From: Candidatus Roizmanbacteria bacterium GW2011_GWA2_35_19
GTDB taxonomy: Bacteria > Patescibacteriota > Microgenomatia > UBA1406 > GWC2-37-13
Assembly (NCBI GenBank): GCA_000990565.1
Contig: LBQC01000013.1
Span: forward strand, 1-34,090
Reading direction: 5' to 3'
Length of the DNA stretch: 34,090 nucleotides
Both the position numbers and the translations under genes were made by a program. The first letter of the stretch is position 1. Each line of letters begins with the position of its first letter. Of this stretch, positions 9,963 to 10,947 are shown piece by piece. The notes under the pieces are model-generated. The model saw only the letters and a list, made by a program, of their open reading frames with translations, did no database searches and had not been told where the DNA came from.

Positions 9963-10344
9963 ATGGTAACAGTTGAATATCTTGCAAAGGAAGTTGAAAA
10001 AATAAAAGGGAGAAATAGAAAGGTCGAGCTTGATAAAAGGTGGGAGACTAGCTTATTTAGAAGATTACTACTGGGATTTTTTACTTATTTTTCGATTGGT
10101 CTGTATATGTATACTAATGACATACTCCTCGGGGCAAGCCCACGAGGTATCTTAGATCTGTCATTCCTGCCCCCGATCGGAGTCGAGGGCAGGCTCCGGC
10201 GGGAATCCAGACTACCACTAAGGATAGATTAAAGTCGAAAAACCTTGGCTAAATGCAGTTATTCCAAGTGTAGGATTTTTTCTTTCTACTCTTACCCTTC
10301 CACTATTTAAGAATTACTGGATAAAAAAACATAAAAAGTTTTAA
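9963..10344 (+). pseudogene. Small CPR-type membrane protein gene interrupted by a 118 bp element
   Basis: MVTVEYLAKEVEKIKGRNRKVELDKRWETSLFRRLLLGFFTYFSIGLYMYT | [10116-10233] | VEKPWLNAVIPSVGFFLSTLTLPLFKNYWIKKHKKF*; deleting 118 bp restores the frame exactly. Confidence 0.85.
10116..10233 (+). mobile_element. Double-hairpin MITE/REP-like element, copy 2
   Basis: Same sequence as 2855-2966 with a 6 nt addition (gactACCACTaagg). Confidence 0.88.
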
Positions 10345-10379: not shown

Positions 10380-10508
10380 ATGAAAGCAAAAAAAATATTT
10401 ATTAAATACGAAAAAAAGAATTCTAAAAAAGCTTCCCTAATTACGAGAGCTGTTAAGCGTGGAATAAAGGAGTATGAAGAAACCTTTAGAAAACTTGCCG
10501 CCATCTAA
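10380..10508 (+). CDS. Putative small antitoxin upstream of the Doc-like toxin (42 aa)
   Basis: MKAKKIFIKYEKKNSKKASLITRAVKRGIKEYEETFRKLAAI*; tatact (10368-10373) is 6 nt upstream; overlaps the toxin ORF by 35 bp. Confidence 0.6.
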   Translation: MKAKKIFIKYEKKNSKKASLITRAVKRGIKEYEETFRKLAAI

Positions 10509-10947
10509 AATTAAGTGGTTGGAAATTGAAGACTTCGAATATCTCTGCTTTGATTTTACACAAAAATACATGTCCTACGATGAACCAATCCCGGATTTTT
10601 CAACTAGGGATAATGTGTTACTTGAATCTGCTTTAGGCTCACCAAAACAAACTTTTGCTGAAAAATTTCTCTACGAGGTTTTTAGTAAACAGGCTTCAAT
10701 CTTATTCTATTCAATAATAAAAAATCATCCGTTTAAAAATGGAAATAAACGAATCGCCGTTATGTCATTATTAGTCTTTCTATCTTTAAATAATCGATGG
10801 TTATCAATAGAACCGATTGATTTGTATAAATTAGCTCGTTATGTTGCAGCAACTAGAACAATAGAAAAAGACCAAGTACTAAATAAAATAGAGGAAAAAA
10901 TAATACAATACATCACATTTTTTCCTAAAAAACGTAGGAAATTCTAG
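10474..10947 (+). CDS. Death-on-curing (Doc)/Fic-family protein
   Basis: KNHPFKNGNKRIAVMSLLVFL matches the Fic/Doc core HxFxxxNKR. Confidence 0.85.
   Translation: MKKPLENLPPSKIKWLEIEDFEYLCFDFTQKYMSYDEPIPDFSTRDNVLLESALGSPKQTFAEKFLYEVFSKQASILFYSIIKNHPFKNGNKRIAVMSLLVFLSLNNRWLSIEPIDLYKLARYVAATRTIEKDQVLNKIEEKIIQYITFFPKKRRKF

Follow-up and report, generated by a model that had tools for sequence, protein, structure and literature searches.

A short element in two copies

The window, by which we mean the whole 34,090-nt stretch of DNA analysed here, carries at 9963–10344 on the plus strand the gene of a conserved small membrane protein, whose interrupted frame stops at 10232. Inside this gene lies a 112-bp element, copy B (10116–10227, minus strand), delimited by sequence comparison, and a second copy of 106 bp, copy A, is found at 2855–2960, likewise on the minus strand. 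An earlier note on this DNA had seen that the sequence at 10116–10233 is also present at 2855–2966, which we can confirm: over 106 nt the two copies differ only by a 6-bp gap between TAGT repeats, a likeness far beyond chance. Read along the minus strand, both copies run from the start CTATCCTTAGT through a REP-like hairpin and the hairpin CCTCGTGGGCTTGCCCCGAGG to the end GTATGTCATT. In copy B these parts comprise a left-end remnant CTATCCTTAGTGG (10215–10227, minus strand), whose adjoining left-end hairpin has been deleted; a hairpin resembling REPs of the CGTC superfamily by the criteria of PMC3733652 (10159–10209, plus strand), with a TGTC tag, an ATTCC...GGAAT stem, a CCA tail and a long loop containing an inner hairpin; the right-end subterminal hairpin CCTCGTGGGCTTGCCCCGAGG (10127–10147, minus strand), placed by the table of ends and by folding; and the terminal TCATT, the reverse complement of AATGA (10116–10120, minus strand). 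The element stands directly 3′ of the host target TTTAAT on the minus strand (10228–10233; ATTAAA on the plus strand), and the host target of copy A is also TTTAAT (2961–2966). The fold of copy B as a whole is better than that of dinucleotide shuffles (z = -3.3), and so is that of its right-end hairpin region (z = -2.3); an Rfam scan of the window returned three tRNAs only.

The source genome (G000) is an 87% complete draft of 1.12 Mb in 52 contigs, and copy numbers given for whole genomes are those returned by searches. Longer relatives of the element were found in the same genome, one on contig C27 with 226 bp from end to end and one on C47, so that related copies occupy four places altogether; the observation that the earlier note had named as fatal to its reading, a lack of further copies in the genome, was thus not made.

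The interrupted gene and its empty site

Searches with the rebuilt protein, in which both flanks are joined, found homologues in 88 of the 280 genomes searched, G000 included; among the sampled relatives, 66 of 213 good genomes have one. In G000 the matches are the two halves of the protein only, and no other copy of the gene was found in the genome. Queried with the orthologue from genome G004, the protein matched no Pfam or NCBIfam model. All 28 intact orthologues that were measured are uninterrupted, natural presence of the element was not seen among them, and their stretch from FTY to VIP is 25 residues long in every case: this empty-site comparison is one between proteins about 52–68% identical, with no sister strain, and covers a single insertion, that of copy B. 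Excisions of 112, 115 and 118 bp each reopen the frame, with resulting FTY-to-VIP lengths of 25 (FTYFSIGLYMYTIKVEKPWLNAVIP), 24 and 23 residues, respectively. The first of these joins 9963–10115 to 10228–10344 to give a protein of 89 aa and, by keeping ATTAAA, leaves Ile-Lys at the junction; most orthologues (AIGV, AIKV, AISV) have Ile here, the commonest residue at this place. Given the orthologue length of 25 and the Ile at the junction, the host would have read ...TATACT|ATTAAAGTC..., and the element is 10116–10227.

The earlier note had taken the element to be 118 bp long, on the grounds that its removal gives an open frame of 87 aa; such a frame does result, but it leaves 23 residues against the 25 of the orthologues, and the boundary has been corrected to 112 bp, with the last six bases, ATTAAA, assigned to the host target. 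An alternative 112-bp cut at 10121–10232, with AATGA as host sequence and Asn-Glu at the junction, gives the same length but was set aside, since Ile occupies that place in most orthologues and the IS200 pattern described below has TCATT within the element. The suggestion that the site records a transposition without target duplication is borne out, as the orthologues supply the empty site and the 112-bp excision leaves no duplication. Judged by these sequence comparisons, the insertion in the small membrane-protein gene is real, and we infer that the gene has lost its function.

Related copies and their ends

Copies with the same two ends occur in genera g1, g6, g7 and g13 of the same GTDB family. 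The 17 two-ended elements that we tabulated measure 106–233 bp, and their flanks outside the ends are unlike each other. Their left end reads TTAAT ^ ...TTAG-GGTTTAATTCC-hairpin, the hairpin being deleted in the window copies only, and their right end reads AGATACC-hairpin-TCAT(T) ^, with TCAT closing all 17. The left flank in the final table is TTAAT in these elements, and TGAAT and TCAAT in two autonomous copies; G058:C72 appears there two bases out of register, its flank being likewise TTAAT, and the right ends of G000:C47 and G016:C58 are divergent or truncated and were missed by the final end pattern.

In these properties the family resembles the palindrome-associated transposable elements (PATEs) described in Haloquadratum (PMC3119063). 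As there, terminal inverted repeats are lacking (the ends CTATCC... and ...GTCATT are not complementary), near-terminal palindromes match those of an IS605-type transposon, insertion occurs without duplication at a short fixed target (the left flank is TTAAT or a near variant of it), the distance from the start to the hairpin is long at the left (5′) end and short at the right, the copies of 106–233 bp are too short for a transposase, and the core shows deletions between direct repeats. Palindromes near both termini are seen in the family (C27, G013, G067 and others), the window copies having one at the right end only. The family differs from the Haloquadratum PATEs in being bacterial (Patescibacteria), in its tnpA-only IS200-type ends and in its CGTC-type REP core, and the window copies differ in addition by the loss of the left-end hairpin.

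Those records with the pattern that carry names are Candidatus Roizmanbacteria together with two contigs of one Bacteroidetes assembly. The latter (L204 and L206 of Bacteroidetes bacterium GSL.Bin13) extend this type of PATE end to another phylum; L204 is two-ended and lacks a REP core, and the pattern in this assembly may stem from shared ancestry, transfer or a binning error.

Autonomous partners and Y1 transposases

We use IS200/IS605 as defined in PMC7290912 and PMC6006769. In three relatives, a TnpA of about 148 aa is encoded between the same two ends, in units of 520–541 bp overall (G016:C33, G058:C36 and G002:C44). This partner TnpA scores 120.9 bits against the NCBIfam model transpos_IS200 (cut-off 55 bits) and 118.5 bits against Pfam Y1_Tnp, and it aligns with solved IS200/IS605 transposase structures, ISHp608 among them, as well as with 2XM3/2XMA, which we take to be structures of ISDra2 TnpA. 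Relatives of this TnpA, about 55–62% identical, lie on Pseudanabaena, Megaera and Piscirickettsia plasmids between ends of the same pattern: at the left, TTTAAT or ATCAAT is followed by CTC or CAC, by GGG...ATTCCCCG and by a hairpin; at the right, TTATT or TCATT follows a hairpin. Such IS200-type insertion sequences with TnpA only (G016, G058, Pseudanabaena or Piscirickettsia plasmids) share the pattern of both ends and the target with the window family, and differ in carrying tnpA, in having no REPs and in their length of about 520–556 bp. Since the ends are common to the autonomous copies, the strand is fixed: the element reads from TTTAAT on the minus strand of the window.

For the IS200 copy on G002:C44 (L208), the downstream flank resembles an ATP synthase beta chain and the upstream flank does not, possibly owing to a misjoin at the repeat. 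Three contigs of a further genome (G050:C2, C6 and C20; L229–L231) start within the final 28 codons of an IS200 tnpA and continue into a right end of this kind, which indicates that IS copies break assemblies in these genomes.

A cognate IS200 TnpA was not found in G000, a genome 87% complete, IS copies often lying at contig breaks. The five Y1 genes of G000 (PF01797, 216–228 aa) are of the longer, RAYT-like type; within the family, Y1_Tnp matches occur in 52 of 72 genomes, many of them RAYT-like and about 216–250 aa long. The earlier note had proposed mobilisation of either the IS200/IS605 or the RAYT type, and had suggested looking for a Y1/RAYT transposase and matching ends: RAYT-like genes are indeed present, and the cognate TnpA was located in G016, G002 and G058 and not in G000. 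The first type gains support from autonomous IS200 elements of relatives, whose ends are the same; the second is not supported. That a REP/REPIN pair was moved by one of the five RAYT-like (TnpA-REP) genes of the genome is highly improbable, and we regard this explanation as largely refuted: the genes exist, the one protein tested has REP_Tyr_transpos as its best model (with a score below its cut-off) and the inner hairpins are REP-like, yet no REP lies within 1.5 kb of a RAYT-like gene at any of 20 loci (five in G000 and 15 in relatives), the core tag is TGTC rather than GTAG or GTGG, and the element ends coincide with IS200 ends, not with REP ends. The window family thus has short hairpins and Y1 enzymes in the genome in common with GTAG REP/REPIN sequences and their RAYTs, but neither the GTRG tag nor the RAYT linkage.

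Still less credible is a classical MITE moved by a DDE transposase, in which TAA would be a target duplication of 3 bp and 115 bp would have to be removed: TAA does stand at both ends of copy B and this removal keeps the frame, but the window element shows neither terminal inverted repeats nor the target duplication of that class, the resulting protein is one residue short against 28 of 28 orthologues, and the fixed motifs differ between the ends (TTAAT and TCATT). A chimera of metagenome assembly or another artefact without true insertion, which a draft genome in 52 contigs might bring to mind, can practically be dismissed, as a unit of 112 bp is short, the flanks on either side are parts of a single gene with frame and order intact, and four places in the genome carry related copies that share these ends.

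The 112-bp sequence is very probably a PATE, that is, a non-autonomous derivative of an IS200-type element (Y1 HUH transposase), inserted by a TnpA in trans with disruption of the gene and bearing a CGTC REP passenger core. By analogy with the IS200 family, TnpA acting in trans would insert the element on the minus strand directly 3′ of TTAAT, a host pentanucleotide (here within TTTAAT), and the single-strand route of this family would leave no target duplication, the element closing with its own TCATT. The insertion falls between the two halves of the conserved small membrane protein and so disrupts the sole gene copy found in the genome. From sequence, the insertion, its boundaries, its family and the type of its cognate enzyme appear well supported, with the copies, the ends, the target preference, the empty site in orthologues and the same-end autonomous partners in relatives all directly visible. 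It counts against this reading of the element as a PATE that no cognate TnpA was found in G000, that both window copies are without the normal left-end hairpin of the family, and that the empty-site comparison, made for this one insertion, is between proteins about 52–68% identical. A search of the literature collection used here found no paper on mobile elements of Roizmanbacteria. The present analysis documents a probable IS200-derived miniature element family in Candidatus Roizmanbacteria, with its exact insertion site, target and cognate enzyme type.

The REP core

The cores of the Roizmanbacteria PATEs contain hairpins tagged GTCAT...ATCCA, the tags forming an inverted pair in 15 of the 17 two-ended PATEs and occurring singly in both copies of the window; no REP tags are present in the autonomous IS copies or in the Bacteroidetes PATE. 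CGTC-tagged REPs are described as having a CGTC or TGTC tag, a stem of 8–9 bp starting with AT, a loop of 4–5 nt and a CCA tail (PMC3733652), and the core hairpins fit this superfamily in their TGTC tag, AT-starting stem, CCA tail and inverted (HH) dimers with outward tags; they differ from the REPs of that study in lying within IS200 ends. Most family copies have a short REP stem-loop (e.g. GTCATTCCCGCGAAGGCGGGAATCCA), and the hairpins of the window copies combine the tag, AT start and CCA tail of CGTC REPs with a base stem of 5 bp and a long loop that encloses an inner hairpin. As with CGTC REPs, there are many copies per genome: the exact REP pattern has 39 matches in G000 and 114 in G013, the highest number among the relatives, with none for a reversed control pattern in both, and most of these REPs sit outside PATEs. 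The 2013 survey of CGTC REPs reported them from five phyla, Patescibacteria not among them, and with no linked transposase (PMC3733652). The CGTC REP core is the unusual feature of the Roizmanbacteria PATEs, the remaining features being ordinary; the REP hairpin is carried as a passenger in the element core, and its position inside IS200 ends suggests a testable route for the spread of REPs without a known transposase, a question thereby opened to a simple cutting assay.

The missing left-end hairpin

In comparison with C27, both window copies are without the left-end hairpin, the spacer and the second REP, and the REP hairpin stands in the place of the left-end hairpin, which is present in the C27 and C47 copies. 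A C27-like parent would yield copy A by deletion between two of its TTAGT repeats, and copy B retains six more bases. The window copies are about 14% different from C27 and identical to each other outside the gap: either a single shortened element may have moved, with a later loss of 6 bases, or the shortening may have happened separately in two long copies, the same ambiguity having been recorded for the Haloquadratum PATEs (PMC3119063). As read from the sequences, the ATTCCC foot of the REP hairpin lies at element base 16 in copy A and 22 in copy B, and the ATTCCC before the left-end hairpin lies at base 18 in C27, so that the deletion brings the REP foot to about where the latter ATTCCC stood. 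The foot is preceded by CTGG where TTTA is normal, which counts against full function. It is conceivable, though we consider it unlikely, that a CGTC-type REP hairpin can take the place of the left-end hairpin in an IS200-type element and so allow an IS200 TnpA to move REP-bearing copies. If true, the window would hold two copies of an element that was shortened first and moved afterwards, and CGTC REPs would have in IS200 transposases a means of spreading.

Surroundings of the two copies

Just downstream of the interrupted gene, 10474–10947 encodes a Fic/DOC-family protein (PF02661) with a short ORF before it, an arrangement suggestive of a toxin-antitoxin pair. At 1816–1919 and 2745–2848 lie the two copies, 95% identical, of a 104-bp direct repeat that ends in a TTTGATATAAT-like promoter sequence; one copy lies upstream of the gene at 1935 and the other adjoins PATE copy A. 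With copy A taken out, GATATA would rejoin AT.
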